From: a virus
IMG/VR virus record: IMGVR_UViG_3300033571_023745
Span: 1 to 26,951 of that record
Direction: 5' to 3' (one strand)
Length of the DNA: 26,951 nucleotides
The position numbers and the translations under genes were made by a program. Each line of letters starts with the position of its first letter. Position 1 is the stretch's first letter. The notes beneath the pieces were generated by a model. It had not been told where the DNA came from and did not search any database. It worked only from the letters and a program-made list of their open reading frames with translations. This document shows positions 2,036 to 26,951 of the stretch, piece by piece.

Positions 2036-2039
2036 TAAT

Positions 2040-2048
2040 TATAAATAT
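2040..2048 (-). promoter_or_regulatory. ATATTTATA start-proximal motif
   Basis: The motif lies 4 nt before the ATG of the P-loop kinase and is one of seven such placements. Promoter or translation signal; not decided. Confidence 0.45.
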
Positions 2049-6236: not shown

Positions 6237-6890
6237 TTATGCTTTAGTTATTGTTACAGGAATTACTAAACGAGCTCCGCTATCATTTCCTATTACAGTT
6301 AAGGTAGCTTGAATTGAGGTTACTGAGGTGAATAATGTATTAACTGTAGTTCCTCTTAATTGGAATGAAGTACCAATTATTGTTTTAGAAACATTAGTAC
6401 CTACGGTTACAGTAGCATTTAGAGCAGTTACCGCAGGAGTATTTATTCCAACTCCCGTAAATGTAGATAATGTTCTAACATCAGAAATAGTAGCGGTATA
6501 ACCACTAGTTTCAAATACATTAGTATTACCTAAGTAGTTTAATGTTTGGGGTGTTAAAGTTAAAGATGCTCCTTGTTTTAAAATAATGGACGAAATACCT
6601 AAATCCAACACAGGCAATTTAGCTGTACCACGAGGTAGAGTAGCTAATTTATACTTCATTATTTGATTCTCATTAGGAAAAGCCTCTAGTAAAGGCATGT
6701 TGTCAATCGCTTGACCATAAAATGCTGATCCTGAGGGATGAGTGGGGTTATACATTGTATAATCAATCTCATCATCTGATAGAGCAAATTGAGTAATTGC
6801 AAATGAGCCATCACCGCGTGCCAATAATTCTCTACCTTTTGTAGTTAGTATTGCATCAACAGTTACAGCTGTATTATTTAAGTATGCCAT
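6237..6890 (-). CDS. Probable phage tail/baseplate protein
   Basis: The 217-residue protein begins MAYLNNTAVTVDAILTTKGR and has an N-terminal segment (VDAILTTKGRELLARGDGSF, then ITQFALSDDEIDY) that I associate with conserved structural proteins of uncultured marine phages. The C-terminal half is Thr/Val-rich and probably beta-sandwich. It is the first gene after the giant tail protein and carries the ATATTTATA motif 7 nt before its ATG. The exact role is unknown. Confidence 0.6.
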   Translation of the reverse strand: MAYLNNTAVTVDAILTTKGRELLARGDGSFAITQFALSDDEIDYTMYNPTHPSGSAFYGQAIDNMPLLEAFPNENQIMKYKLATLPRGTAKLPVLDLGISSIILKQGASLTLTPQTLNYLGNTNVFETSGYTATISDVRTLSTFTGVGINTPAVTALNATVTVGTNVSKTIIGTSFQLRGTTVNTLFTSVTSIQATLTVIGNDSGARLVIPVTITKA

Positions 6891-6897
6891 AATTTAT

Positions 6898-6906
6898 TAT
6901 AAATAT
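6898..6906 (-). promoter_or_regulatory. ATATTTATA start-proximal motif
   Basis: It lies 7 nt before the ATG at 6890, in the 33-nt gap after the giant tail gene. Confidence 0.45.
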
Positions 6907-11327: not shown

Positions 11328-11851
11328 TATTGTCTAACTTGAGGTCTTGATCTTTCTGGGGTAGGACGTCTTGCTCCTCCTACTTTAAGTTGTGTACTTC
11401 CTCCTGAGGGTAATGTTTCAGTTGGTGCTTCTGTAGAGGTAACTTGAGGTTTTTTTCTAGTAGTAGAACCAATTTGATTTAAATTAGCATTTGATTGTTC
11501 TGTTGGATTTACACTTTCTGCTTGAACGGTAATAACTTGTCTTTGTAATTCCAAATTTTCTTGACGAAGTTGATTAATTTCTTCTAATAATGCTTGTACT
11601 TCTTCACTTACAACATTTTCATCAATATAATTACCACTTTTATTAATTAAGTATTGGTGTGAGTTAATTTCTCCTAATTTTGGAATTTGAAAAAATAAAT
11701 TATCATATGCTTGAAAAAATTGATTTACATCAATAGTTTGAGCAACAGATGCAGTAGGAGAAGAAATAAGTTGAGTGAATTGATTATCAACTACCTGTCC
11801 AAATTGGGATTTATTATACCCTGTTTTAGATATAATTATTTTTTCACTCAT
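11327..11851 (-). CDS. Coiled-coil baseplate-region protein with proline-rich tail
   Basis: The 174-residue protein has a central heptad-like segment, VQALLEEINQLRQENLELQR, that should form a coiled coil. A low-complexity C-terminus follows, rich in Pro, Thr, Arg and Gln and ending in basic residues. The N-terminal 70 residues are of unknown fold. It is coupled to both neighbours by 1-nt TAATG overlaps, so it probably assembles with them. No named homologue was recognised; a linker or chaperone for the 1467-residue protein is a guess. Confidence 0.65.
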   Translation of the reverse strand: MSEKIIISKTGYNKSQFGQVVDNQFTQLISSPTASVAQTIDVNQFFQAYDNLFFQIPKLGEINSHQYLINKSGNYIDENVVSEEVQALLEEINQLRQENLELQRQVITVQAESVNPTEQSNANLNQIGSTTRKKPQVTSTEAPTETLPSGGSTQLKVGGARRPTPERSRPQVRQ

Positions 11852-12963
11852 TATCCATTAATTACCTTAAAATAATAACTATCATCAGAAATTATAGTTT
11901 GACCATCAATTATAGTTTTTATTAAAAATTTATAATATCTTTCTGGTTCTAATCCATTCATATAAACAGTAAAATAATTACTGGTTGAATCTGCACTTAT
12001 TTTGGTGTAGGTATTGTCAAAATCTACAACATATTCATTTGTATCTAGATCTTTAATAGCCCAATAAGATGAGGTAGGTAAAAAATAGTTAGTTGTGTAT
12101 ATGGATGAGGTTGAGAAAGTACGAGGAGGATAAGCAGGACGAGCATTTACTCTAATTTTTGCTATACTTCCACTATAAAAATAACCAGAGTTATTAGGTA
12201 ATGTTAGTTTAAAACTAGAATTAGTTAATATACTAGAGGTAAGAGATCCAGTTAATACTGTAGAAAAATCATCCCATTTAATTTCTAAGCATGGAGGATA
12301 AATTGTATGTGTATCAACAGAAAAATATCTTAGTTCAAATGCTGATCCAGAACTAAATTCTATAGAATCATCTTTTTTAATTATAAACCCATTATTAGTA
12401 ATAGATCCACTAGCAAATAAATCAACAGCATCCGTTACATTAAAGTTTATATCTTTTGAAGTTGCGTATGTAAACGTTTGAGTAAAGGGTAATGATTTAT
12501 TTGGGTATTCATAATACCAATCACCACCACCAATATTATTTGAAGGATATGATGATGTTACATATGAATTATAAGGAAAAATAGACCATGTTCCTGATCC
12601 TGATTCTTGGGTAAATTTCCAACTAACCCCATTATCGGTTATAGGACTATCTTGATAATGACCAGTTCCCATAACCCAAGAACTGTATATTGGGTAGCAA
12701 TATAATGTGTAATTTAGGGGAATATTAGAGGCATATGCTAAAAATAATCTTAAATTAGCTTGCCATGTTTTACCTGATATCTTGTTATTGATTATATCAG
12801 TAATTTCTGATTGATTGAATTGTAATAAAGGACGACTAGAATATACTACTTGGTTATCAGCTATTGTTGATAATTCTAAGATCTCATCCAACCCTGTGTT
12901 TTCAGAGGGATATTGTGAATACAGAGTAGCATCCTTTTCAGGAAAAATTTTATAAACGGCCAT
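11851..12963 (-). CDS. Beta-sandwich virion protein, DNRLRE/CBM-like
   Basis: The first about 230 of 370 residues (starting MAVYKIFPEKDATLYSQYPS) resemble DNRLRE-type beta-sandwich domains. Signs are the opening segment on varied ends, SSRPLLQFNQSEI, ANLRLFLAYAS and a closing LEIKWDD strand. The C-terminal about 130 residues look like an Ig-like or fibronectin-like module (ARPAYPPRTF, YYKFLIKT). Such modules often occur in phage fibres and carbohydrate-binding proteins. It lies directly downstream of the gp6-like gene. The ATATTTATA motif sits 4 nt before the ATG. Sugar binding is inference. Confidence 0.6.
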   Translation of the reverse strand: MAVYKIFPEKDATLYSQYPSENTGLDEILELSTIADNQVVYSSRPLLQFNQSEITDIINNKISGKTWQANLRLFLAYASNIPLNYTLYCYPIYSSWVMGTGHYQDSPITDNGVSWKFTQESGSGTWSIFPYNSYVTSSYPSNNIGGGDWYYEYPNKSLPFTQTFTYATSKDINFNVTDAVDLFASGSITNNGFIIKKDDSIEFSSGSAFELRYFSVDTHTIYPPCLEIKWDDFSTVLTGSLTSSILTNSSFKLTLPNNSGYFYSGSIAKIRVNARPAYPPRTFSTSSIYTTNYFLPTSSYWAIKDLDTNEYVVDFDNTYTKISADSTSNYFTVYMNGLEPERYYKFLIKTIIDGQTIISDDSYYFKVING

Positions 12964-12967
12964 TTAT

Positions 12968-12976
12968 TATAAATAT
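12968..12976 (-). promoter_or_regulatory. ATATTTATA start-proximal motif
   Basis: It lies 4 nt before the ATG at 12963, in the 18-nt gap after the gp6-like gene. Confidence 0.45.
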
Positions 12977-12981
12977 TGATT

Positions 12982-14835
12982 TTAGAAAGATACTACTCTT
13001 CCTTGGATATCGCTATTTGGATACTTGATTTCAAAAATAGAAGGATCTAAAGATGGATATATAGTACCATTTTGTGTAGCACCTTCAATATCATAAGCAT
13101 ATTGGGAATATCCATTTATAATTCCTGATTTGTTATTTATTAGTATATTTTTTACTGTTTGTACACCTTGAACTTTACTTAATTCAATATATAAATCTTG
13201 CAATACAATTGGTTGGTTTATTGACCATTTATCAACATTGAAATAAGTTTGTAAGGTATTAATACAGTTTATTAAAATATCATTACTATTAAAGTTAGGT
13301 AATACGATAATTTCAAAATCAACACCTATATTAATAACAAATCCATCTCTAATTCTAACAGAATCGTTTATCATTCTATATTCTGCTAGGTATGTTTTTA
13401 GATTGTTTTTTACTGTATCGGAAACAGTTGTTAATTTTTTATTAGCATCATACCCTAAAACATATAAATCTAGAACTGATGGTGTTTCACCAGGTTGTAA
13501 ATTTTCGATTTTAACGGCCTCGGTATAAGCTTTAGCAACAGATCCATAATTGGAAGGCATTGACAAAGCACGAACCAAATAATCAGATGGGGTAACATTT
13601 CGTAATTGTGATTGAAAAGTTACTAAAGAGTTTTGTCTAATTTCCTCTAATGTGTCTCCATCAGAACCACCAGATGCGGCCTCAGGGTTTGTAATGGCTA
13701 CTGTTCCAAAAATATAATTGGATGTAGTTGGATCTAAATTAGAATTAATAAATGAAATATTTGATGAATTAACAATTTGAGTTAAAGTATTAGCATCAAT
13801 ATTGGATGTAACTCCACCACCAACTAAATATCTAACGGTCAATGTTGTGTTAGATGGTGCAATACCATAGGTATCAGTTTGTAAGAAATTAGTAGGATCA
13901 AATGCTGTTGTTAATTTACTTTGTTTATATGGTAATCCTAAACCTACATTATCTGAATTAGGAACTATAATCTCATCAATATCTCCAGTTGTACCTGAAC
14001 CAAATTGAAGTTGGAGATTACCTGTTGAAGTAAAACGAGAAACAAATCTTCTTGGTGTTTTTCTTAACCTTAATAAATAAGGAACATCTGTGTCTTGATA
14101 AGTATTAGGATCATTTGTATTTGTATTTCTAATACTATCATATATCATTTCTTGACCTAAATAAGGTACTTCATACCAAATATTTCCATCACTATCGGTT
14201 ATATCTAATACTTGTAAAATATTAGTGTCGATAATGTTTACTGTGGAAAATTCCTCAGGAGTACCAAATGTAAAAGTTGTTGATTTTACTTGAGCCGATA
14301 TAGCTTGTCTTGTTTTCTTTAATAAGAAATATTGAGGATTACCTCCTGATGTTTGGTATACTGTGGTTTCTGTAGGGTCAGTTGAACTTGAAAAAGTAAA
14401 ATTTACATTATCCTGAATAAGAAAGAAGGTATTATTTAGTGTTCTTATTTGAGTATTTTCAGCAAATTGTAAAGTATAATTAAAATCAGGTACATATACC
14501 GAACCACTTAATATAGAAGGAACTTGTTGATATATATCAATATTTACTGTTGATGCTTTAGTAACTTTTGGTCTATATCCCATCATATATGCTAACGTGT
14601 ATATATTTTGAGATTGTTTAGCATATTGTAAAAAGGTTTCTTGAATTTGGTTATCTAAATAAAAAGATAAAACATCACCTACATAAGAGGCCATTTCCAT
14701 GAACATCATTCCAGGAGAAGATGGACTAAAGTCATTGTAAGTATTAGGGAAATAGGTTTTAGTATAGTCTATTAAAAGATTTTTTAATCCTTGAAAATCC
14801 CTATTAAAATATTTTATATCTTTATTATTGGCCAT
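12982..14835 (-). CDS. Baseplate wedge protein, gp6-like / baseplate J family
   Basis: The 617-residue protein matches the N-terminal pattern of T4-type gp6: YFNRDFQGLKNLLIDYTKTY, then SPGMMFMEMASYVGDVLSFY and a helix ending AYMMGYRP. The middle carries the baseplate-J segment with GGSDGDTLEEIRQNSLVTFQ, followed by RNVTPSDYLVRAL. The C-terminal domain starts around residue 480. In T4, gp6 forms the wedge dimer that links wedges into the baseplate ring and it binds gp25. Here its start overlaps the gp25-like gene by 11 nt, the same order as in other T4-like phages. Confidence 0.9.
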   Translation of the reverse strand: MANNKDIKYFNRDFQGLKNLLIDYTKTYFPNTYNDFSPSSPGMMFMEMASYVGDVLSFYLDNQIQETFLQYAKQSQNIYTLAYMMGYRPKVTKASTVNIDIYQQVPSILSGSVYVPDFNYTLQFAENTQIRTLNNTFFLIQDNVNFTFSSSTDPTETTVYQTSGGNPQYFLLKKTRQAISAQVKSTTFTFGTPEEFSTVNIIDTNILQVLDITDSDGNIWYEVPYLGQEMIYDSIRNTNTNDPNTYQDTDVPYLLRLRKTPRRFVSRFTSTGNLQLQFGSGTTGDIDEIIVPNSDNVGLGLPYKQSKLTTAFDPTNFLQTDTYGIAPSNTTLTVRYLVGGGVTSNIDANTLTQIVNSSNISFINSNLDPTTSNYIFGTVAITNPEAASGGSDGDTLEEIRQNSLVTFQSQLRNVTPSDYLVRALSMPSNYGSVAKAYTEAVKIENLQPGETPSVLDLYVLGYDANKKLTTVSDTVKNNLKTYLAEYRMINDSVRIRDGFVINIGVDFEIIVLPNFNSNDILINCINTLQTYFNVDKWSINQPIVLQDLYIELSKVQGVQTVKNILINNKSGIINGYSQYAYDIEGATQNGTIYPSLDPSIFEIKYPNSDIQGRVVSF

Positions 14836-15238
14836 TATTAAAATTTATTTGTATGTTATCGGTTATTCCCGTATTAATTATAGAATAGTTAATATCAATA
14901 AATACGGTATTATAATCATAATTAGGGATTATATTTACTGTAGCTTGAACTGAGGGGAAATATTTGTTTATATCACTTTCGATTTTAAATGCTATATTTT
15001 CTAAATTTTCATTTAATATTTGTTCAAAAATATAATTTCTTATTCCTGCTCCAAAAGAAGGATTTAATGGTCTTTCTCCAGGGTTAGTAAGTAAATAATT
15101 AATTAAATTATTTCTTATAGCATCTTTAGTAATAAAAGTAGAATCAAAAACAGAAGGTGCATTAAAAGGAAGAGCAACACCCACGGCTTTACGGGGGTTT
15201 TGATCTATTGGGAATATTTTCTTTGCACCAAATGCCAT
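14825..15238 (-). CDS. Baseplate wedge protein, gp25-like
   Basis: The 137-residue protein is the right size for the GPW/gp25 family. Residues 40-60 contain the hallmark TNPGERPLNPSFG, with the conserved E-R-P, followed by GIRNYIFEQ. The rest is the expected alternating helix and strand. gp25 sits at the core of the wedge and helps trigger sheath polymerisation. The gene overlaps the gp6-like gene by 11 nt and the upstream gene by 1 nt. Confidence 0.93.
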   Translation of the reverse strand: MAFGAKKIFPIDQNPRKAVGVALPFNAPSVFDSTFITKDAIRNNLINYLLTNPGERPLNPSFGAGIRNYIFEQILNENLENIAFKIESDINKYFPSVQATVNIIPNYDYNTVFIDINYSIINTGITDNIQINFNNGQ

Positions 15239-16643: not shown

Positions 16644-17800
16644 TATGTAGTATAAATATCGTCAGACAAGATGTTATTTGTGTTAACTTTCCCTAAAGCA
16701 TTTTTCAAAGATTCAGCAGCCGATACAATAGCGGCCAATTGTGTTCCTGAAGGTTGTGATATTTGGGATGAACAAATAGTGGCAAATGTATTTAATGCTG
16801 TTATTAAAGTATCTAATTGAGTTTTTAATGTATTTCCTAATACAACTTTTTCAGTAGCATCTTTACTACCTAAATACACTTTATCAGATTCTAATATAAT
16901 ATCACCTCCGGTTTCTAAATTTATTGATGTAAATGCACTTAAATTAATGGATTTATTAGAACGTATCAATATATGATCATCACTAGAATTTAAAACTAAT
17001 CGTCCAGATTTAATTAAAATTTGTGGTTTATTATATTGGTTAGTAGCTATAGGAGCATCATTTGATGATTTATAACTTGGATAAGATGATGGTAAAGATA
17101 TTCCTAATTTTTGAGTAGAGGTTAAATATATTGAACTTGGATCAGTACTTGGGTTTTCTATAGTAGGTAAATATCCTACACTACCTGCATTAGGATCTTG
17201 TCCGTTTTTTAAAATAGTAATAGGGTCACCGTTTTGAGACCCGGTTGACCAATTATTTAATGGTTGAGACCCACTTATAACAGTGGAACCAAATCTAATA
17301 GAGTTACCAAATCTACCTTCAATAATAAAATCACCCTCAAATTTAGTTAAAGGTTTTATATTTGATTGTTCTGTAAATGTATTACCTAAATCAATTTCAG
17401 TAGAACCATCTTGTACTCTTCTAACTAATCCTCTTTCGGTTTGTTGATAATCTTGTTTTTGTGAATCAGGAATATCAGATATATTAAATATATTAGGGAT
17501 AGCATTATGGTGAGGACTATTCCAAATATTTATAGGACATATATAATATGAACTTTGTCTATTTACATTATTCTGGACATCTGGATTAGGTAATTGAAAG
17601 ATGTATATTAATTCGTTTTTTAAAGGATAATTGGTAATATTAGGGAAATAAGATTTAGCAAATCCTAAAGCACCATATGAATTACCTTTTATTTCCTTAT
17701 AAACTACAGTTCCAATTCCGTTATAACCTCCTACAGTACTAAAGTACTTATTGTTTGTATCTAAAACAACATCAATTACTACAGAAGGAGAATAATTCAT
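16643..17800 (-). CDS. Baseplate hub/spike protein, gp5-like without lysozyme domain
   Basis: The N-terminal part of this 385-residue protein contains FEGDFIIEGRFGNSIRFGST, typical of the OB-fold hub proteins of T4-like cyanophages. GDPITILKNGQ follows. Residues about 265-320 carry a repetitive beta-prism segment (LVLNSSDDHILIRSNKSINL, then SINLETGGDIILESDKVYLG) like the needle of gp5/VgrG spikes. There is no lysozyme domain, unlike T4 gp5. The protein probably forms the trimeric membrane-piercing spike. The C-terminus (about 325-385) is helical. It overlaps both neighbours by 1 nt. Confidence 0.75.
   Translation of the reverse strand: MNYSPSVVIDVVLDTNNKYFSTVGGYNGIGTVVYKEIKGNSYGALGFAKSYFPNITNYPLKNELIYIFQLPNPDVQNNVNRQSSYYICPINIWNSPHHNAIPNIFNISDIPDSQKQDYQQTERGLVRRVQDGSTEIDLGNTFTEQSNIKPLTKFEGDFIIEGRFGNSIRFGSTVISGSQPLNNWSTGSQNGDPITILKNGQDPNAGSVGYLPTIENPSTDPSSIYLTSTQKLGISLPSSYPSYKSSNDAPIATNQYNKPQILIKSGRLVLNSSDDHILIRSNKSINLSAFTSINLETGGDIILESDKVYLGSKDATEKVVLGNTLKTQLDTLITALNTFATICSSQISQPSGTQLAAIVSAAESLKNALGKVNTNNILSDDIYTT
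16651..16659 (-). promoter_or_regulatory. ATATTTATA start-proximal motif inside coding sequence
   Basis: It lies 7 nt before the ATG at 16643 and is embedded in the last codons of the spike gene. Confidence 0.35.
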
Positions 17801-18144
17801 TATTTTTCAGGAGATTGTATTTTATTTATTTCGGCCAATAATTGTGCTTTTTCTTCATCACTAATACCCAATGAACCATCAGCATTATTTGTAGAATTTT
17901 GCATTGCTCTTTGGACAATGGCTGCTAATTTAATTAAATGTTCATCGTTTTTAACACCAATTTCCATATATTCTTTAATTAATGGAACAATCAAAGTAGC
18001 ATCACCAATATCGTTGATAAGAGGTTTTAATTCAGAAATTAAGGCAGAAATTTGAGCTTCTTTCTTTTTAGAATTATCGTATATCTCTTTCATTAAATCA
18101 GCAAATGATTTTTTTCCAAAGATATTTACATCAAAATTAGACAT
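17800..18144 (-). CDS. Small helical protein upstream of spike gene
   Basis: The 114-residue protein looks mostly alpha-helical: KSFADLMKEIYDNSKKKEAQ, then a helix with ISELKPLINDIG, and EEKAQLLAEINKIQ at the end. It overlaps the spike gene by 1 nt (TAATG) and is the first gene of the structural block after the sigma factor gene. Two ATATTTAT-type motifs lie within 22 nt upstream of its ATG, so this may be the head of a transcription unit. Function unknown. Confidence 0.6.
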   Translation of the reverse strand: MSNFDVNIFGKKSFADLMKEIYDNSKKKEAQISALISELKPLINDIGDATLIVPLIKEYMEIGVKNDEHLIKLAAIVQRAMQNSTNNADGSLGISDEEKAQLLAEINKIQSPEK

Positions 18145-18157
18145 AATAAATATATGT

Positions 18158-18166
18158 TATAAATAT
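18158..18166 (-). promoter_or_regulatory. ATATTTATA start-proximal motif
   Basis: It lies 13 nt before the ATG at 18144, with a second near-copy (ATATTTATT) directly before the ATG. This is the first gap after the sigma factor gene. Confidence 0.5.
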
Positions 18167-21932: not shown

Positions 21933-22132
21933 TTTGTTTCAAAAGGGTTATATCCAACTTGTGTGTTAAATTAATAGTATATATACGGATATATGGGTCG
22001 GCGGGTAAAGATTGTAAAAGGGCTGTTTATATATCTAACCGCGCCTCTTTATATCACCAACATCGCGCGCCTTCTGCGCGCGTGGGAGCGCGCAAAATAA
22101 TCGCGCAAGAAAATCGCACAAAAGATGCGCGC

Positions 22133-22159
22133 AAAAAAAGCGCGCGATTTCTCGCGCGC
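22133..22159 (-). terminator. Strong intrinsic terminator with GAAA tetraloop
   Basis: On the minus strand GCGCGCGA-GAAA-TCGCGCGC forms a perfect 8-bp stem capped by a GNRA loop and followed directly by seven T residues. It lies 54 nt beyond the stop of the AT-hook gene and probably ends the leftward transcripts of the small-gene region. Confidence 0.8.
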
Positions 22160-22178
22160 CTCTCTACAACCAACAAAC

Positions 22179-22198
22179 GGCACGCCTTTCGGCATGCC
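22179..22198 (-). terminator. GAAA-capped hairpin just after the AT-hook gene
   Basis: On the minus strand GGCATGCC-GAAA-GGCGTGCC pairs over 8 bp with one U-G wobble. The following GTTTGTT is only moderately T-rich. It may act as a first terminator or as a 3-prime mRNA stabiliser ahead of the stronger one. Confidence 0.6.
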
Positions 22199-22212
22199 TG
22201 TTAACTAACACG

Positions 22213-22560
22213 TTATTCGGCTTTCTTCATGGCCGGACGACCACGTTTAACCGTTCCGACTTTAGCCAACCGTTGTTGTCTTGCACTATCCGGATTCACA
22301 GGTCTACCTAATGCAACATTGCCCTGTTTGGACAACCGCTCTTGTCTTGCACTATCAGGATTAACAGGACGACCACGTTTACCAGTTGATGGTTTAGACA
22401 AACGTTCTTGTCTTACACTATTGGGATCAACGGGACGACCTCTACGAGGTACATAACCGTTTTGTTTTTTATCTTCCATTTCTTTCAAACGTAATTGACG
22501 TGGTGAATTAGGATTAACTGGACGGCCTTTTTGTTTTGGTGTTACTGAATTTGTAGACAT
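22213..22560 (-). CDS. Multi-AT-hook DNA-binding protein with tandem 22-residue repeats
   Basis: The 115-residue basic protein is almost entirely repeats of a unit of about 22 residues: RGRPVNPDSARQERLSK plus a short linker. GRP cores occur five times, starting near residues 12, 41, 63, 85 and 107; the first linker is longer and the last unit is truncated. RGRP is the AT-hook core that binds the minor groove of AT-rich DNA. The second half, NPxSxRQxRL, is a repeat-specific helix. The likely role is to coat or bend the AT-rich phage or host DNA, perhaps as a nucleoid-like or regulatory protein. Its coding DNA is more GC-rich than neighbouring genes. The leader contains ATTT and ATT microsatellite repeats. 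Two terminators follow. Confidence 0.75.
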   Translation of the reverse strand: MSTNSVTPKQKGRPVNPNSPRQLRLKEMEDKKQNGYVPRRGRPVDPNSVRQERLSKPSTGKRGRPVNPDSARQERLSKQGNVALGRPVNPDSARQQRLAKVGTVKRGRPAMKKAE

Positions 22561-22604
22561 AACTTTTATTTATTTATTTATTATTATTATTATTTCTTTT
22601 TATT
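22561..22604. repeat. ATTT/ATT microsatellite in the leader of the AT-hook gene
   Basis: The plus strand has about four tandem TTTA units followed by about five ATT units immediately before the ATG of the AT-hook gene. The mRNA leader is therefore AAT/AAAT-rich and unstructured, which can favour SD-independent initiation. Length changes could alter expression. Confidence 0.6.
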
Positions 22605-22611
22605 ATATTTA

Positions 22612-22641
22612 AATATATGAAATATTTGTTTTGAATCTCGG
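22612..22641 (-). promoter_or_regulatory. Early-type promoter unit A
   Basis: CCGAGATTC, 11 nt, then TTCATATATT. It is the most divergent downstream box of the series. It drives the AT-hook gene and follows the stop of the 35-residue gene by one base. Confidence 0.55.
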
Positions 22642-22642
22642 A

Positions 22643-22750
22643 TTATTGTTTGGGGTTATTATTTGAACGATTTTTTTCTAACTTAATAGTTAATGCTATT
22701 GATACCCCAACCCATAAAACCAAAACCAATATTACTAAAATGTTGTACAT
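22643..22750 (-). CDS. 35-residue single-pass membrane peptide
   Basis: An ATG at 22750 opens 35 codons ending at 22643. The sequence begins MYNILVILVLVLWVGVSIAL, one hydrophobic helix, and ends in a polar tail rich in Lys, Asn and Gln. It sits between its own promoter unit B and unit A, so it is a monocistronic unit of the same layout as its neighbours, which supports it being real. Such mini-proteins can act on host membrane systems, but no function is known. Confidence 0.6.
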   Translation of the reverse strand: MYNILVILVLVLWVGVSIALTIKLEKNRSNNNPKQ

Positions 22751-22774
22751 GTTATTATCTTTTATTATGATATA

Positions 22775-22804
22775 ATTATACGAATGAATTGTTTTGGATC
22801 TCGG
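22775..22804 (-). promoter_or_regulatory. Early-type promoter unit B
   Basis: CCGAGATCC, 11 nt, then TTCGTATAAT, followed by TATATCATAATAAAAG up to the start of the 35-residue membrane peptide. Confidence 0.7.
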
Positions 22805-22812
22805 ATTAGAAA

Positions 22813-23013
22813 TTATTTATCTCCCAATTTGAATTGTTCGTAAACTTCATCGGCATCAATCTCTACATCAGTGTCGGGAAACATATGGACCAAGTACTTT
22901 ATGAAACGTAAACGTAATTGGGCTTGTTCCATTAATCTTTGTGATTGTAAACATTGGGCTTCAATCATAGCATCACTTAAGTGGCTTTTGATTGCTAAAC
23001 TTACTCTTATCAT
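22813..23013 (-). CDS. Small hypothetical protein, 66 residues
   Basis: The frame is open from 23052, but the first 13 codons coincide with promoter unit C, so the start is placed at the ATG at 23013 (MIRVSLAIKSHLSDAM). The product is helical (IEAQCLQSQRLMEQAQLRLR) with an acidic end (VEIDADEVYEQF). Function unknown. Confidence 0.65.
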   Translation of the reverse strand: MIRVSLAIKSHLSDAMIEAQCLQSQRLMEQAQLRLRFIKYLVHMFPDTDVEIDADEVYEQFKLGDK

Positions 23014-23034
23014 ATCTTTCTTTATTATGATATA

Positions 23035-23064
23035 ATTATACGAACGATCCATTTAAAACCACGT
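23035..23064 (-). promoter_or_regulatory. Early-type promoter unit C (degenerate upstream box)
   Basis: TTCGTATAAT is intact. The upstream box at the same 11-nt distance reads ACGTGGTTT, five of nine matches to CCTAGGTTC. It abuts the stop of the preceding gene. Confidence 0.55.
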
Positions 23065-23065
23065 A

Positions 23066-23260
23066 TCAATATTTGGGGCTGAATGGTATGCTAGTGGATG
23101 TGAGATCATCTTCCGCATCACCATTTGGATATAGCTTGGCCTTACACTCGGCCAACGTGCCCTTATGGAGCACACGAGCATTAGGATGTGATGGGATGGA
23201 TTGACATATTGCTACCTGTCTGTTTCCCCATATGGTGGTATATTCGTAAGCTACAAACAT
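23066..23260 (-). CDS. Small hypothetical protein, 64 residues
   Basis: The protein opens MFVAYEYTTIWGNRQVAICQ and ends in a polar, Ser/Thr/Pro-rich tail (DDLTSTSIPFSPKY). The body looks like a small beta fold with a short helix (LAECKAKLYPNG). It is 2 nt after the upstream gene, so both share promoter D. The gene is visibly more GC-rich than its neighbours. Function unknown. Confidence 0.6.
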   Translation of the reverse strand: MFVAYEYTTIWGNRQVAICQSIPSHPNARVLHKGTLAECKAKLYPNGDAEDDLTSTSIPFSPKY

Positions 23261-23262
23261 GC

Positions 23263-23505
23263 TTATTTACCTAACATTACATTGTTGAAGTAGCAATCAT
23301 CCAACCCAACCACTAGAGCATAATGCAATACACCCTCTATAAAATAGCGTTGTGTGGTATCTACCAACTTGTCTTTAGAGATCAATCTACCACGCTTCAC
23401 ACGAGATGGTTTATTGATTATCTTATTTGCATCCGCATCCGAGATGATAAATTGGCTTCCAACACGTGTTGCCTCTACTTGTGTGTCTTTTATTATTACT
23501 TTCAT
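23263..23505 (-). CDS. Small hypothetical protein, 80 residues
   Basis: The protein starts MKVIIKDTQVEATRVGSQFI and looks like a compact beta-rich domain with a basic centre (NKPSRVKRGRLISKDK). The central KRGR resembles half of an AT hook but lacks the Pro. It is the first gene after promoter D and its terminator-like hairpin. Function unknown. Confidence 0.6.
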   Translation of the reverse strand: MKVIIKDTQVEATRVGSQFIISDADANKIINKPSRVKRGRLISKDKLVDTTQRYFIEGVLHYALVVGLDDCYFNNVMLGK

Positions 23506-23513
23506 TATGTTTA

Positions 23514-23543
23514 ATTATACAAATAAATTAAAGGGGACCTAGG
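23514..23543 (-). promoter_or_regulatory. Early-type promoter unit D
   Basis: CCTAGGTCC, 11 nt, then TTTGTATAAT, ending 9 nt before the ATG at 23505. Its upstream box lies in the 3-prime arm of the hairpin at 23530-23567. Confidence 0.7.
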
Positions 23544-23567
23544 ATCAAAGTCCTAGGTCATCCCTTT
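23530..23567. terminator. Bidirectional terminator-like hairpin fused to promoter D
   Basis: GACCTAGGA (23536-23544) pairs with TCCTAGGTC (23551-23559), a 9-bp stem with a 6-nt loop. After a 2-nt bulge, AAAGGG (23530-23535) pairs with CCCTTT (23562-23567). It begins 3 nt after the stop at 23570. The trailing minus-strand sequence CCCCTTTAATTT is moderately T-rich. Confidence 0.6.
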
Positions 23568-23569
23568 CT

Positions 23570-23737
23570 TTAATCTTCATATGTTTCAAAATCTTCAATT
23601 TCTTCTAATTCATCAATATAATTTTCTATTACTTGACTAAAATCTTCCAAATCAAAATTGTGAGCATTTTCAATGTTGTCATCAGCTAATTGTTTTACTT
23701 GATTAAGTAAATCTTTCATTTTTTCAATTGTATTCAT
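23570..23737 (-). CDS. Small acidic protein, 55 residues
   Basis: The frame extends upstream to 23863, but those 42 codons run through promoter unit E and part of the preceding gene. The start is therefore placed at the ATG at 23737 (MNTIEKMKDLLNQVKQLADD). The protein is helical and very acidic at the C-terminus (YIDELEEIEDFETYED), like many phage DNA-mimic or inhibitor peptides. A specific function cannot be given. Confidence 0.65.
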   Translation of the reverse strand: MNTIEKMKDLLNQVKQLADDNIENAHNFDLEDFSQVIENYIDELEEIEDFETYED

Positions 23738-23762
23738 ATCGTTTTTTTTTTTATTATAATTA

Positions 23763-23792
23763 AATATACAAACTTTTATTTTAGAATCTAGG
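23763..23792 (-). promoter_or_regulatory. Early-type promoter unit E
   Basis: CCTAGATTC, 11 nt, then TTTGTATATT. The 30-nt unit is identical in sequence to unit F, including the spacer. Confidence 0.7.
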
Positions 23793-23801
23793 ATAATTAA
23801 T

Positions 23802-23957
23802 TTAGAATACCAAAAAATCAACAGCCATTTCCCCAGTTGGTTTACCATCTTTAGTAATTTCATAATTAGGGTCCATACCTGAATTAATAATATCCAAAAT
23901 TAATTCGTTTAATGAGTTAAATTTTCTTCCGTAGTAATTACAATTTAATGAATACAT
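23802..23957 (-). CDS. Small hypothetical protein, 51 residues
   Basis: An ATG at 23957 starts a frame reading MYSLNCNYYGRKFNSLNELI and ending GEMAVDFLVF. It lies between promoter units F and E, each at the usual distance, which supports it as a gene. The sequence looks like a compact alpha/beta mini-domain. Function unknown. Confidence 0.6.
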   Translation of the reverse strand: MYSLNCNYYGRKFNSLNELILDIINSGMDPNYEITKDGKPTGEMAVDFLVF

Positions 23958-23976
23958 ATCTTTTTTATTATACTTA

Positions 23977-24006
23977 AATATACAAACTTTTATTTTAGAA
24001 TCTAGG
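23977..24006 (-). promoter_or_regulatory. Early-type promoter unit F
   Basis: CCTAGATTC, 11 nt, then TTTGTATATT, one base after the stop at 24008. Duplicate of unit E. Confidence 0.7.
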
Positions 24007-24007
24007 A

Positions 24008-24265
24008 TTACTTATTTTTGTAAAACGTAATTCTAATTGCATCCATATTCTCTATAAATCTAAAATTACGTACAACAAATCTTGGGTGTTCTATTACATA
24101 ATTAATATCTTGTGATTCAAGAAACTCGGTTACCTGTTTTATTAATGATTTAGGTAATTGTATTTTGATTGATGCTGGATTTTTATAATAAATGTATTGT
24201 TTATTAAAGTTATTTTTAAGGAATGGTTTGATAATGTTGTGTGTAATGTTTATATCTTTTTTCAT
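24008..24265 (-). CDS. Small basic hypothetical protein, 85 residues
   Basis: The start is set at the ATG at 24265 (MKKDINITHNIIKPFLKNNF). An upstream ATG at 24280 would fall within promoter unit G. The protein is basic, with Lys-rich segments and an alpha/beta look (SIKIQLPKSLIKQVTEFLES, then a VVRNFRFIEN strand). Function unknown. Confidence 0.65.
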   Translation of the reverse strand: MKKDINITHNIIKPFLKNNFNKQYIYYKNPASIKIQLPKSLIKQVTEFLESQDINYVIEHPRFVVRNFRFIENMDAIRITFYKNK

Positions 24266-24271
24266 AATATC

Positions 24272-24301
24272 AATATACAAATTATTTATTTAGAACCTAG
24301 G
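24272..24301 (-). promoter_or_regulatory. Early-type promoter unit G
   Basis: CCTAGGTTC, 11 nt, then TTTGTATATT. The TAG inside CCTAGG is the stop codon of the upstream gene (24297-24299), so coding and promoter sequence overlap. Confidence 0.72.
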
Positions 24302-24596
24302 ATAAAAAATATTCTACAACCTGATCAAAATCATAAATTTCATCCTCATATTCAACATGGAATTCAATATCATAATATTTACATTCATCAACCAAATATT
24401 GTAATGTAAGTAAATCACTGCTGACAACCTCAGCATAATATATCTGATTTACCTCATCATCAATTTCAATTGTAAAACCTAATTTACTGTATTTATTTAT
24501 TTGGTCCTGATCAATAAAGGCAAAACATTTAAATTCATTGATGTTTAATGACATTGTTGATTCATTGTGTATAGGATTTAAATTTAATTTATTCAT
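24297..24596 (-). CDS. Acidic hypothetical protein, 99 residues
   Basis: The start is the ATG at 24596 (MNKLNLNPIHNESTMSLNIN). A longer frame from a TTG at 24623 only translates promoter unit H. The protein is strongly acidic in its second half (YYDIEFHVEYEDEIYDFDQV) and looks alpha/beta. The stop codon is part of promoter unit G. Function unknown; charge mimicry of DNA is possible but not shown. Confidence 0.65.
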   Translation of the reverse strand: MNKLNLNPIHNESTMSLNINEFKCFAFIDQDQINKYSKLGFTIEIDDEVNQIYYAEVVSSDLLTLQYLVDECKYYDIEFHVEYEDEIYDFDQVVEYFLS

Positions 24597-24614
24597 ATTT
24601 TTTATTATGATATA

Positions 24615-24644
24615 ATTATACAAATAAATTTTTAAGAACCTAGG
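24615..24644 (-). promoter_or_regulatory. Early-type promoter unit H
   Basis: CCTAGGTTC, 11 nt, then TTTGTATAAT, abutting the stop codon at 24645. Followed by TATATCATAATAAAAA up to the ATG at 24596. Confidence 0.75.
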
Positions 24645-24833
24645 TTAATCAATCTCATCTAGCAGCCAAGGCCACATTTCAAAAACTTTTGAAGCATCTA
24701 TTTCAATCAAAGTTATTTCAACTTCATTTGAACTTTGTTTAACTTGTTTTTTGTTATAAATTATTTTTCCCCAAATTGCTTTTGGTTCTGAAGTTTTATC
24801 AGTTATTTGTTTTGGTTTAAAATTTCTTCCCAT
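24645..24833 (-). CDS. Small hypothetical protein, 62 residues
   Basis: The protein starts MGRNFKPKQITDKTSEPKAI with a basic N-terminus and ends in an acidic, Trp-rich tail (VFEMWPWLLDEID). The centre (VEITLIEIDAS) is a probable strand pair. It is the first gene read leftward from the large control region, from promoter unit I. Function unknown. Confidence 0.62.
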   Translation of the reverse strand: MGRNFKPKQITDKTSEPKAIWGKIIYNKKQVKQSSNEVEITLIEIDASKVFEMWPWLLDEID

Positions 24834-24868
24834 GATTTACCTTAATTTAATATATAATCTTTTCCCCA

Positions 24869-24898
24869 AATATACAAACCCTCAGTTGAGAACCTAGG
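24869..24898 (-). promoter_or_regulatory. Early-type promoter unit I
   Basis: CCTAGGTTC, 11 nt, then TTTGTATATT, within AACCTAGGTT. The leader to the ATG at 24833 is longer (about 30 nt) than in the other units. Confidence 0.72.
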
Positions 24899-24908
24899 TT
24901 TAAAAACA

Positions 24909-24920
24909 ACGGTTAACCGT
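24909..24920. promoter_or_regulatory. Perfect 12-bp palindrome
   Basis: ACGGTTAACCGT is a perfect palindrome 10 bp upstream of promoter unit I, a suitable place for a dimeric repressor or activator site. Confidence 0.5.
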
Positions 24921-24934
24921 ATATACTTTGTCGA

Positions 24935-24958
24935 GGGAAAGGGGTGGAGGGGTTGGGG
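24935..24958 (+). other. Canonical G-quadruplex motif
   Basis: Four G-tracts of 3, 4, 4 and 4 bases at 24935-24937, 24941-24944, 24949-24952 and 24955-24958 are separated by loops of 3, 4 and 2 nt. This fits the G3+N1-7 rule and is striking in such AT-rich DNA. Confidence 0.6.
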
Positions 24959-24988
24959 AATATACTTACCATCCCCACTCTTCCCCAA
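24953..24988. repeat. 8-bp inverted repeat with 20-nt loop
   Basis: TTGGGGAA (24953-24960) and TTCCCCAA (24981-24988) are perfect inverted copies. The left arm shares the last G-tract of the G-quadruplex motif, so the two structures would compete. No T-tract follows, so it is not a typical terminator. Confidence 0.5.
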
Positions 24989-25080
24989 AACACATACTTT
25001 CATACTTGTCACCTACTAACTTACACAATCCTACCTATCTACATATATCAATCACTATTTATATCCATTGGTCACACTTT

Positions 25081-25226
25081 GTTAATCCACATTCATTTAA
25101 TCTACACCCGTTAATCTACATTCTGTTAATCTACATTTTTATGTGGTTGATCTACAGAACGTTGATCTAAACCCCACACGGTTGATCTACACTATGTTGA
25201 TCTACACTATTGAATGTTAATCTAAA
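25081..25226 (+). repeat. Iteron-like array: nine copies of GTTRATCTACA
   Basis: Copies start at 25081 (GTTAATCCACA), 25096 (TTTAATCTACA), 25110 and 25125 (GTTAATCTACA), 25146 (GTTGATCTACA), 25161 (GTTGATCTAAA), 25181 and 25196 (GTTGATCTACA) and 25216 (GTTAATCTAAA). Start-to-start distances are 15, 14, 15, 21, 15, 20, 15 and 20. All are in the same orientation. The last copy includes the stop codon of the gene to its right. The 9-mer TRATCTACA is 7/9 to the DnaA box TTATCCACA, and the first copy is 8/9. Confidence 0.85.
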
Positions 25227-25423
25227 TACCTTACATACATAATAAAATCATTCAACACCGTTACTGCCTCCTCTAATTCCCCCACCCTACAGTATGATTC
25301 CACATCATTAAGATATAGTTCTTTCCATTCATTTAGTTTGGTTATCATTTCTGATTTACTGAATGATGGTGTGATGAAGTCTGAATTGTTATTATCTATT
25401 ATTTCTTTATTTTCCCCACCCAT
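25217..25423 (-). CDS. Small acidic hypothetical protein, 68 residues
   Basis: The protein begins MGGENKEIIDNNNSDFITPS and continues as two helices (KLNEWKELYLNDVESYCRVG, then ELEEAVTVLNDFIMYVRYL). It begins 4 nt after the stop of the 98-residue gene and shares promoter J. Its stop codon lies in the ninth iteron copy, so its 3-prime untranslated RNA would carry the repeat array. Function unknown. Confidence 0.65.
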   Translation of the reverse strand: MGGENKEIIDNNNSDFITPSFSKSEMITKLNEWKELYLNDVESYCRVGELEEAVTVLNDFIMYVRYLD

Positions 25424-25427
25424 GTTA

Positions 25428-25724
25428 TTATAACTTTTTAGTTAATTCAATGATAAATGCTACAAGGTCAGTTGTGCAATGTCCCATTACATCACTATAT
25501 TGTTCACATTTAACTAAACTCATATGGTTATCTTCTTCATTTAAGACATACCAATTACCACTTTCATCCCAAACAGCTACCTCTGCTGTGGTTTGACCTT
25601 TATCACAATGACTATATTCACCAAACATAACACTAATTGTACATCCATTTGAAAATGTCATTTGGAAACCTTGTTGTTCAACCTTATCAGTTATTTGATT
25701 TTTTACTACTCTAAAATTTTCCAT
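25428..25724 (-). CDS. Conserved phage protein of unknown function, 98 residues
   Basis: The pattern FQMTFSNGCTISVMFGEYSH, then TTAEVAVWDESGNWYVLNEE belongs to a beta-rich family that recurs in small-gene regions of many tailed phages. The C-terminus is one helix (DLVAFIIELTKKL). Family membership is from memory of the pattern; no function is known for it. It is the first gene after promoter J and is closely followed by the 68-residue gene. Confidence 0.7.
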   Translation of the reverse strand: MENFRVVKNQITDKVEQQGFQMTFSNGCTISVMFGEYSHCDKGQTTAEVAVWDESGNWYVLNEEDNHMSLVKCEQYSDVMGHCTTDLVAFIIELTKKL

Positions 25725-25748
25725 ATTATTTCTTTTTATTATGGTGTG

Positions 25749-25778
25749 ATTATACGAATAAGTTATTTGGAACCTAGG
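25749..25778 (-). promoter_or_regulatory. Early-type promoter unit J
   Basis: CCTAGGTTC, 11 nt, then TTCGTATAAT. It lies 8 nt after the stop at 25787 and is the most upstream unit seen; none is found among the SD-led genes to its right. Confidence 0.75.
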
Positions 25779-25786
25779 ATAAAAAA

Positions 25787-26026
25787 TTATTGTTTGTCTC
25801 CAAATGTTTCGTTGTAGTATTGTTCTACTTCTATTTCTATCAGATGCGGTCTTCTATCAGTGTCATCAAACCAGACAACTGCATCTTTAATCTCTTCCTT
25901 GTGCATTGCTTTGGCTTTGGTTATTATTTCTCTAATTTCATCCCATTGGCTCATTGGTATATAATCAATCTTTTGGTTTAATTCTTTAACCAACCAATCA
26001 ATACTACTTTGTTTATTGTTGCTCAT
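25787..26026 (-). CDS. KQS-x-x-W-L family small phage protein
   Basis: The 79-residue protein opens MSNNKQSSIDWLVKELNQKI and has AKAMHKEEIKDAV in the middle and EVEQYYNETFG near the end. This order (KQ-x-x-x-(D/E)WL, A-K-x-M-x-x-(E/Q)-I, E-Q-Y-Y-x-E-T) recurs in many phage hypothetical proteins. It has a strong SD, AGGAGGT, 5 nt before the ATG, unlike most genes in the window. Function unknown. Confidence 0.72.
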   Translation of the reverse strand: MSNNKQSSIDWLVKELNQKIDYIPMSQWDEIREIITKAKAMHKEEIKDAVVWFDDTDRRPHLIEIEVEQYYNETFGDKQ

Positions 26027-26041
26027 TGTTACCTCCTTGTG

Positions 26042-26245
26042 TTAAATTATATGTGTTTCAAATAAAAAATTATTTTGTAAACTTGTTAAACTTTCAAACC
26101 AAAATAATTTATCAGGCAATCCTGCATAATGAATAAATGGTTTCCATTCTTCTTTGTCAAACCATAAAAATCTTTTTGTTATATGTAAATACTCACAAGC
26201 AAATTTTCCTCGTTGTTGTTTAATTCTAAATTGTGGTTTACTCAT
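26042..26245 (-). CDS. Small aromatic-rich hypothetical protein, 67 residues
   Basis: The protein starts MSKPQFRIKQQRGKFACEYL and is rich in Phe, Trp and Lys (FLWFDKEEWKPFIHYAGLPD). An AGGAGG SD lies 7 nt before its ATG, inside the end of the upstream gene, and the two overlap by 4 nt (ATGA). Function unknown. Confidence 0.65.
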   Translation of the reverse strand: MSKPQFRIKQQRGKFACEYLHITKRFLWFDKEEWKPFIHYAGLPDKLFWFESLTSLQNNFLFETHII

Positions 26246-26514
26246 TTGTTGCCTCCTTGGATTTTATCACGCATCCATTTTGCACCACAATAAAAGGCAA
26301 GTCTATCATTTGCCCTGTTAGCATATTCAGAATCAGGAAATTGTAATAATCGCTCTTCTCGTATCTCCTCATCACTTGGTAGTTCAATGGGTGTTAAATT
26401 TCTAACAACCTCGTTAACATCTTCAAATGTTATTGATTCTAAAAATACTTTTTGTAAAGCATTTACAACTTGTTCTTCTGTGTATAGTTTCATACTTTGT
26501 TTATTGTTGTTCAT
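26242..26514 (-). CDS. Phage protein with GAKWMRDKI motif, 90 residues
   Basis: The N-terminus is MNNNKQSMKLYTEEQVVNAL, sharing the NNNKQS tag of its neighbours. The C-terminus RLAFYCGAKWMRDKIQGGNK has the A-F-x-x-G-A-K-W-M-R-D pattern common in small phage proteins. The terminal QGGNK is encoded by the SD of the next gene. The rest is acidic and helical. Function unknown. Confidence 0.7.
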   Translation of the reverse strand: MNNNKQSMKLYTEEQVVNALQKVFLESITFEDVNEVVRNLTPIELPSDEEIREERLLQFPDSEYANRANDRLAFYCGAKWMRDKIQGGNK

Positions 26515-26686
26515 ATTCTTTATGGTTATATATTAATTCACATATCCAAACATCTTGGAATTCGTAAATGCTACAGTAGGTTTCTGCATCTTCAAAGGTT
26601 TCAAAAATTTTAATGTTTCCATTTTTGTGTTTAAAAAACTCATTGTTAATGATGTCTACAATTATGTATTGTTTATTGTTGCTCAT
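26501..26686 (-). CDS. Small protein with MSNNKQ tag, 61 residues
   Basis: The start is taken at the ATG at 26686 (MSNNKQYIIVDIINNEFFKH), because it matches the tag of the neighbouring genes and overlaps the previous stop by ATGA. A longer frame to 26752 would run inside the preceding gene. The body is alpha/beta (IKIFETFEDAETYCSIYEFQ). It overlaps the 90-residue gene by 14 nt. Function unknown. Confidence 0.65.
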   Translation of the reverse strand: MSNNKQYIIVDIINNEFFKHKNGNIKIFETFEDAETYCSIYEFQDVWICELIYNHKEYEQQ

Positions 26687-26865
26687 AAATATTCTTCTAT
26701 AATTAATTTTTGGTGCATTATTTCTATTTTTTCGGTGTATGTGAATAGGCAATTTAAATCTTCAAAACATACACCCGTCAATAATACAAAAATTGATTTT
26801 GCATTTATACGAGTATTAACATCTAATGATTTAAACCACTCCACGCTACTTTGTTTATTGCTCAT
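26683..26865 (-). CDS. KQS-x-x-W family small protein, 60 residues
   Basis: The protein starts MSNKQSSVEWFKSLDVNTRI with the same tag as the 79-residue protein but has an unrelated body (FVLLTGVCFEDLNCLFTYTE). A good SD, GGAGGT, lies 5 nt before the ATG within the end of the upstream gene. It overlaps the next gene by ATGA. Function unknown. Confidence 0.65.
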   Translation of the reverse strand: MSNKQSSVEWFKSLDVNTRINAKSIFVLLTGVCFEDLNCLFTYTEKIEIMHQKLIIEEYL

Positions 26866-26951
26866 TGTTACCTCCGTAGATTTCTTTTAATAATTCTAAT
26901 TTTTTTTCAACTGATTTTAATGCTTCGTCCCAAATTTTTTTACGTTGCTCA
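26855..26951 (-). CDS. C-terminal part of a small helical protein (cut by window edge)
   Basis: The last 31 codons of a gene entering from the right read EQRKKIWDEALKSVEKKLEL, then LKEIYGGNNEQ and a TAA at 26855. The charged helix fits a real gene. Its IYGGN is encoded by the SD of the downstream gene, with which it overlaps by 11 nt. The N-terminus lies outside the window. Confidence 0.6.
   Translation of the reverse strand, partial: EQRKKIWDEALKSVEKKLELLKEIYGGNNEQ

Follow-up and report, generated by a model that had tools for sequence, protein, structure and literature searches.

Rigidly spaced two-box units, probably early promoters, in a T4-like phage contig of a likely Bacteroidota host

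We analyzed the IMG/VR virus record IMGVR_UViG_3300033571_023745 over its whole length of 26,951 bp (hereafter the window). Between positions 22,612 and 25,778 its minus strand carries ten units, each with a 9-nt upstream box (CCTAGGTTC or a variant), exactly 11 nt of spacer and a 10-nt downstream box (consensus TTYGTATA[A/T]T). We propose that these units serve as promoters for the early genes of a T4-like myovirus whose host is probably a member of the Bacteroidota, and that the RNA polymerase of the host, together with the primary sigma factor, most likely reads them; we consider this reading probable. Each unit would then combine a -33 element (here CCTAGGTTC) with a -7 element (TATAWTTA, usually with TTYG directly 5') at a rigid distance. 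The units would represent one lineage's form of a promoter that this phage group places upstream of early genes, and not a new kind of switch. The proposal builds on direct observations, namely the units, their spacing and placement, their homology to promoters of relatives and their separation from a late-type motif.

Ten units ahead of small genes

A first-pass annotation, made from the sequence alone, had listed ten units with an invariant 11-nt spacer, and all ten are present (Table 1; the higher coordinate of each unit is the start of its upstream box and serves as its name). Eight of them are strong; in another the -10-like box is degenerate, and unit 23064 matches poorly in its upstream box, with four mismatches. 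We counted matches at spacings from 3 to 24, allowing at most two mismatches in the upstream box and at most one in the downstream box. Eight matches fell at spacing 11 and one at all other spacings together, compared with a mean of 0.017 matches at spacing 11 in Markov-3 surrogates (n = 60). Because the spacing is fixed, both boxes appear to be read together, as had been suggested. The spacers and leaders mostly differ between units while the boxes stay alike, which agrees with the annotation except that the spacers of units 24006 and 23792 are identical. Because of this common spacer, we regard these two units as a recent duplication, leaving about nine independent units.

The downstream box had been described as a -10-like TATAAT. 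Five of the ten units, however, read TATATT, and unit 22641 reads TTCATATATT. The nearest relatives, L006 and G003, have TATGTTTA at this place and a more distant isolate has TAnnTTTG, which weakens an Escherichia coli-like reading. Nor did this region show an excess of promoters of the E. coli sigma-70 type (TTGACA-N16-18-TATAAT), with 26 found and 30.4 expected. The TATAAT label is thus misleading.

Directly downstream of every unit lies a small gene or gene pair, and in several units the boxes touch or include the stop codon of the preceding gene. In the window, early-type units precede 7 of 16 genes, compared with none of the 27 upstream regions to the left of position 22213, where the annotation had also noted their absence. 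The genes to the right of 25787 were examined as well, and no unit was found there.

A separate late-type motif, TATTTATAA, lies upstream of structural genes, near the start codon. In the complete genome of Flavobacterium phage immuto, the early type precedes 1 of 75 structural-block genes and 32 of the 159 others (p = 3e-5), whereas the late type precedes 13 of 75 and 5 of 159, respectively (p = 3e-4). The two motifs separate by gene class in the window as they do in immuto. It was a fixed pattern that separated the classes; an expectation-maximization (EM) search for the late motif in the immuto structural blocks returned coding composition only. By analogy with T4, the late-type motif is probably read by the gp55-like protein listed in Table 1. 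Early promoters of the T4 type occur in many copies upstream of small prereplicative genes and at no structural genes, and the units show this distribution. We infer early timing from their placement and the existence of the late motif. The first assignment of the units, as promoters serving a class of small and probably early genes, is supported.

Table 1. Two-box units, late-type motifs and two protein-coding genes of the window
Feature	Position	Strand	Context
Unit 1: CCTAGGTTC-N11-TTCGTATAAT	25749..25778	-	upstream of 98-aa gene 25428-25724
Unit 2: CCTAGGTTC-N11-TTTGTATATT(TG)	24869..24898	-	upstream of 62-aa gene 24645-24833
Unit 3: CCTAGGTTC-N11-TTTGTATAAT	24615..24644	-	upstream of 99-aa gene 24297-24596; box adjoins stop codon of preceding gene
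Unit 4: CCTAGGTTC-N11-TTTGTATATT	24272..24301	-	upstream of 85-aa gene 24008-24265; TAG stop of preceding gene within box
Unit 5: CCTAGATTC-N11-TTTGTATATT	23977..24006	-	upstream of 51-aa gene 23802-23957
Unit 6: equals unit 5, spacer included (recent duplicate)	23763..23792	-	upstream of 55-aa gene 23570-23737
Unit 7: CCTAGGTCC-N11-TTTGTATAAT	23514..23543	-	box is 3' arm of terminator-like hairpin 23536-23559; upstream of genes 23263-23505 and 23066-23260
Unit 8: weak ACGTGGTTT-N11-TTCGTATAAT	23035..23064	-	upstream of gene 22813-23013
Unit 9: CCGAGATCC-N11-TTCGTATAAT	22775..22804	-	upstream of 35-aa open reading frame 22643-22750
Unit 10: CCGAGATTC-N11-TTCATATATT	22612..22641	-	upstream of gene 22213-22560; orthologous promoter kept in L006, G003 and G018
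Late-type motif TATTTATAAT	2038..2047	-	upstream of gene 1277-2035
Late-type motif TATTTATAAT	6896..6905	-	upstream of structural gene 6237-6890
Late-type motif TATTTATAAT	12966..12975	-	upstream of gene 11851-12963
Late-type motif TATTTATAAC	18156..18165	-	upstream of gene 17800-18144
gp55-like sigma factor, 247 aa	18175..18918	-	weak Sigma70_r2 match, 20.7 bits, under the Pfam cut-off of 24
115-aa protein with repeated (R)GRPVNPDSARQxRL motifs and AT-hook-like RGRP cores	22213..22560	-	orthologs in L006, G003, G018 and L030

Relatives and the lineage-specific upstream box

Among the proteins of the window, PHROG matches point to a primase, an exonuclease, a gp6-like baseplate wedge protein (12982-14835) and a gp25-like protein (14825-15238). 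Two isolates come closest: Flavobacterium phage immuto, with identities of 42% for the sigma and 47% for the baseplate protein, and Microcystis phage Mel-JY01, with 35% and 46%, respectively. Taken together, the gp6-like, gp25-like and gp55-like matches and these identities indicate that the window is a fragment of a T4-like myovirus and kin of immuto. Shine-Dalgarno sequences are nearly absent from this phage group and from most of the contig, which together with the kinship to a Flavobacterium phage suggests a Bacteroidota host. Relatives were sampled by their similarity to a single protein, the gp55-like sigma protein, so the survey is non-exhaustive; the comparison used several relatives, each as its whole record, and the complete genome of immuto.

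Motif discovery in relatives, which the first-pass annotation had proposed, returned the same architecture as the top motif in three of them. EM discovery was run on gene-upstream regions with seeds limited to TATRWT-like words. The top motifs were GTTGC...TTC.TATATTTAGGTAT in immuto (47 sites), TTTGGAT.CCC...TTCGTATATT in G017 (42 sites) and TT.GGCTT.C...TATATTTA in G018 (46 sites). In immuto, G017 and G018 the form is thus GTTGC, TTTGG or T[TA]GGCT and, an invariant 20 nt after its TTG or TAG, TATATTT. L030 gave the same architecture as TTGGCT.ACA...CATATATTTAG (11 sites), and so did Mel-JY01, where the motif was noisier and the clear sites were of the form CTTGC...CGTATATTTG, that is TTG and TAnnTTTG. 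Discovery gave a noisy result when limited to the window and L006, and no clear motif emerged from short relatives, among them L041 and L062. When the distance from TTG/TAG to the -7 element was left free, the sites at the single 20-nt distance numbered 27 of 31 in immuto, 18 of 19 in G017, 35 of 36 in G018, 9 of 9 in L030 and 7 of 7 in Mel-JY01. Because nearly all sites of each genome fall at one distance, we regard rigid box spacing as a trait of the group.

The upstream box of the window marks a narrower clade. The pattern CC[TG]AG-N17-YGTATRWT matched eight times in the window, six times in L006 and three times in G003, all 17 at one spacing, and no match occurred in these three at any other spacing from 10 to 25. 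It is also present in G020 and G021, and the reversed pattern matched nowhere in these five. A single match in the 95.8-kb record G019 was taken as chance because the reversed control matches once there too. In the sigma-protein tree the window groups with L006 and L009/L007 (support 99/98), and the CC[TG]AG box is found in no other row of the tree, its presence being judgeable only for records that cover the small-gene stretch. Within this clade the box sits one nucleotide closer to the -7 element than in relatives (19 nt vs 20 nt).

An intermediate form was found in the sister contig L011, where CTTAGGCTC-N11-AAATTATATTTAAATAT (given also with AAATTATATT) lies upstream of a gene adjoining the same T5orf172 gene as in the window. 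Its box is midway between T[TA]GGCT and CCTAGGTTC, and its spacing is that of the window. Orthologous promoters were recognized at two genes. The gene of the 115-aa repeat protein has one in the window, L006, G003 and G018, and the 51-aa gene 23802-23957 has one in the window and in L014, where it reads TTAGGCT...CGTATATTTAAGT. In these promoters the -7 side is retained and the -33 box tracks the lineage. The 115-aa protein is possibly a DNA-binding early protein; as a query it had no match in viral contigs, but tblastn on the loci of relatives did recover its orthologs.

Host polymerase or a phage factor at the upstream box

If the host reads the units, its RNA polymerase and primary sigma would most likely bind both boxes in one step. 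Transcription would start a few nucleotides 3' of the -7 element and give a short, A-rich leader without a Shine-Dalgarno sequence. In the window clade, CCTAGGTTC would be the local variant of the T[T/A]GG(C/T)T or TTG box of the group, displaced by one nucleotide, and the simplest account is that the -33 box of a host-read early class drifted to it by lineage. Each small gene or pair has its own copy of the unit, so that genes could be gained, lost and shuffled along with their promoter.

Flavobacterium primary-sigma promoters consist of TTTG and TANNTTTG, the latter being the -7 element and spanning -12 to -5 (PMC6847099; PMC9723704). Promoters of this Bacteroidota class are defined by a start 4-5 nt 3' of the -7 element, made by the host polymerase. 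The units resemble them in distance, in the TA..TT core at -7 and in the short A-rich leader without a Shine-Dalgarno sequence, although the consensus is that of Flavobacterium, which may not be the host of the contig. Most window units have the TA and following Ts of TANNTTTG, and Mel-JY01 has a complete host-like TAnnTTTG within the same architecture. The first-pass annotation had set the upstream box apart from the Bacteroidota TTTG. Literally the box is not TTTG, being CCTAGGTTC and one nucleotide closer, but the separation from Bacteroidota promoters found no support: at the aligned place relatives have TTTGG, GTTG, CTTG or T[TA]GGCT at equally fixed spacing, and L011 has CTTAGGCTC-N11. 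Compared with T4 early promoters, which match better and extend further than those of the host (PMC2988021), the units are alike in their many copies upstream of small prereplicative genes, their above-host conservation, their T4-like phage and the separate late motif. They differ in following the Bacteroidota pattern rather than TTGACA/TATAAT. The T4 class is defined by activity immediately after infection without a phage protein.

Several points weigh against recognition by the host alone. In Flavobacterium johnsoniae the G at -5 is almost invariant and the -33 motif is weak (PMC6847099). The window -7 element instead tends to end in A, with TATAWT followed by TA, CA, GA or TG and the G present in one of ten units. 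The phage -33 box is strong and long and its spacing rigid, in contrast to the weak host motif, so another reader is possible. TATGTTTA of L006 and G003 contains a G that is avoided in host promoters. Finally, T[TA]GG-hairpin promoters occur in G003 alongside CC[TG]AG units, and the two kinds could represent separate temporal classes.

These points bear on the possibility that the units are middle-type promoters, at which an early-made phage activator binds CCTAGGTTC in place of the contact by host sigma region 4, in the manner of MotA, while the host sigma reads the -7 element. We judge this unlikely, yet worth keeping in view. The 9-nt box is more strongly conserved than the weak -33 element of the host itself, varies by phage lineage at constant spacing and comes in two flavours within the G003 genome. 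As in T4 middle promoters, it replaces the usual element at a fixed distance from an AT-rich box. However, the MotA box and the -10 element of T4 are 12 +/- 1 bp apart (PMC2988021), and MotA itself does not fit because the distance here, from the 9-nt box to TATA, is 15 nt. In relatives the box also passes gradually into plain TTG/TTTGG where the host element normally sits, with L011 in between. No MotA-like protein was found among the small proteins scanned with Pfam, a part of the total, and no MotA or AsiA homologs were seen among the proteins scanned, which are part of those on an incomplete contig. A phage factor at the box stays a live rival because the host -33 element is weak, with a near-invariant G, whereas the phage box is strong, with mostly A. 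In a broader version, to which we give similarly low credence, a phage-encoded factor rather than the host sigma would read the upstream box and co-evolve with it. The lineage-specific box, kept at constant distance from a -7 element that the host reads, would then belong to a system by which Bacteroidota phages appropriate sigma, analogous to MotA and unrelated to it in sequence.

We consider it very improbable that a dimeric repressor or activator uses CCTAGG as a palindromic operator placed over ordinary promoters. CCTAGG is self-complementary and AACCTAGGTT occurs in two units, but in the variants CCTAGATTC and CCGAGATTC one side departs from the symmetry, no upstream mirror exists for T7 and C9 of the box, the box of relatives is non-palindromic and the spacing to the -7 element is rigid. 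Equally little probability goes to mobile promoter cassettes whose likeness stems mainly from recent copying and recombination, not from selection on the promoter. Such cassettes would resemble the promoter-early stem-loop cassettes (PeSLs) of T4, in which a terminator stem-loop is joined to an early promoter. The likeness to PeSLs (as cited in PMC4503421) lies in compact promoter cassettes among small interchangeable genes and in a hairpin over the box, found in some relatives and at unit 23543. The identical spacer of units 24006 and 23792 and the differing settings of the small genes among relatives fit this idea. Nine of the ten window units, however, have no such hairpin, the boxes persist while spacers and leaders diverge, and orthologous promoters are kept across lineages. 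Copying would explain spread rather than function, and is compatible with promoters read by the host.

In the open-access literature searched, no account of early promoters of T4-like phages of Bacteroidota turned up. The exact unit occurs in viral contigs only in the window's own record, and none of 84,980 genomes of bacteria and archaea contains it. Relaxing the unit added four isolated matches in viral contigs, one per contig and none repeated as a promoter family. An early promoter class, as judged from sequence, is now defined across several lineages of these phages, with a box that changes by lineage. Its rigid distance of 20 nt (19 nt in the window clade) has not been reported for host promoters of the phylum. 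The class offers a clean test of the tolerance of host sigma for these boxes, provides ready candidates for strong promoters in Bacteroidota genetics and helps to assign hosts to uncultured phages.

Other features of the window and its relatives

Mel-JY01 (L125, L126), recorded on Microcystis, has Bacteroidota-type TTG/TAnnTTTG promoters and lacks Shine-Dalgarno sequences; its true host may be a Bacteroidota companion in the culture. L132 (CAJBLF010000034.1), a 3.3-kb contig in a bacterial metagenome bin, has two immuto-type units and is probably phage DNA.

In G003 (L093 2256; L094 5313, 5755 and 17425), the promoters of a PhoH-like gene, a nucleotide-kinase-like gene and a primase-exonuclease pair overlap or adjoin terminator-like hairpins. 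Most of these promoters have boxes of the T[TA]GG type, a second flavour in this genome. A CCTAGGTTT unit is common to L092 (838-900), L006 (4944-5010) and L131 (2087-2150), with no start codon close downstream. It is followed by a conserved short stretch, AGGGTCGACT.TTTAATTAGAGT, and then by a second unit. This arrangement is possibly a tandem promoter or a short RNA.

No known RNA families were found in window positions 22000-26951. The small genes at the right end (25787-26865, minus strand) have a repeated Shine-Dalgarno-like leader and N-terminus ((A)AGGAGGTAACAATG, MSNNKQS), unlike genes elsewhere in the contig and in its relatives, where Shine-Dalgarno sequences are nearly absent. Positions 22040-22200, which separate the small-gene block from the T5orf172 gene, are GCGC-rich with many overlapping terminator-like hairpins, and a comparable GC-rich stretch occurs in G003 and L011.

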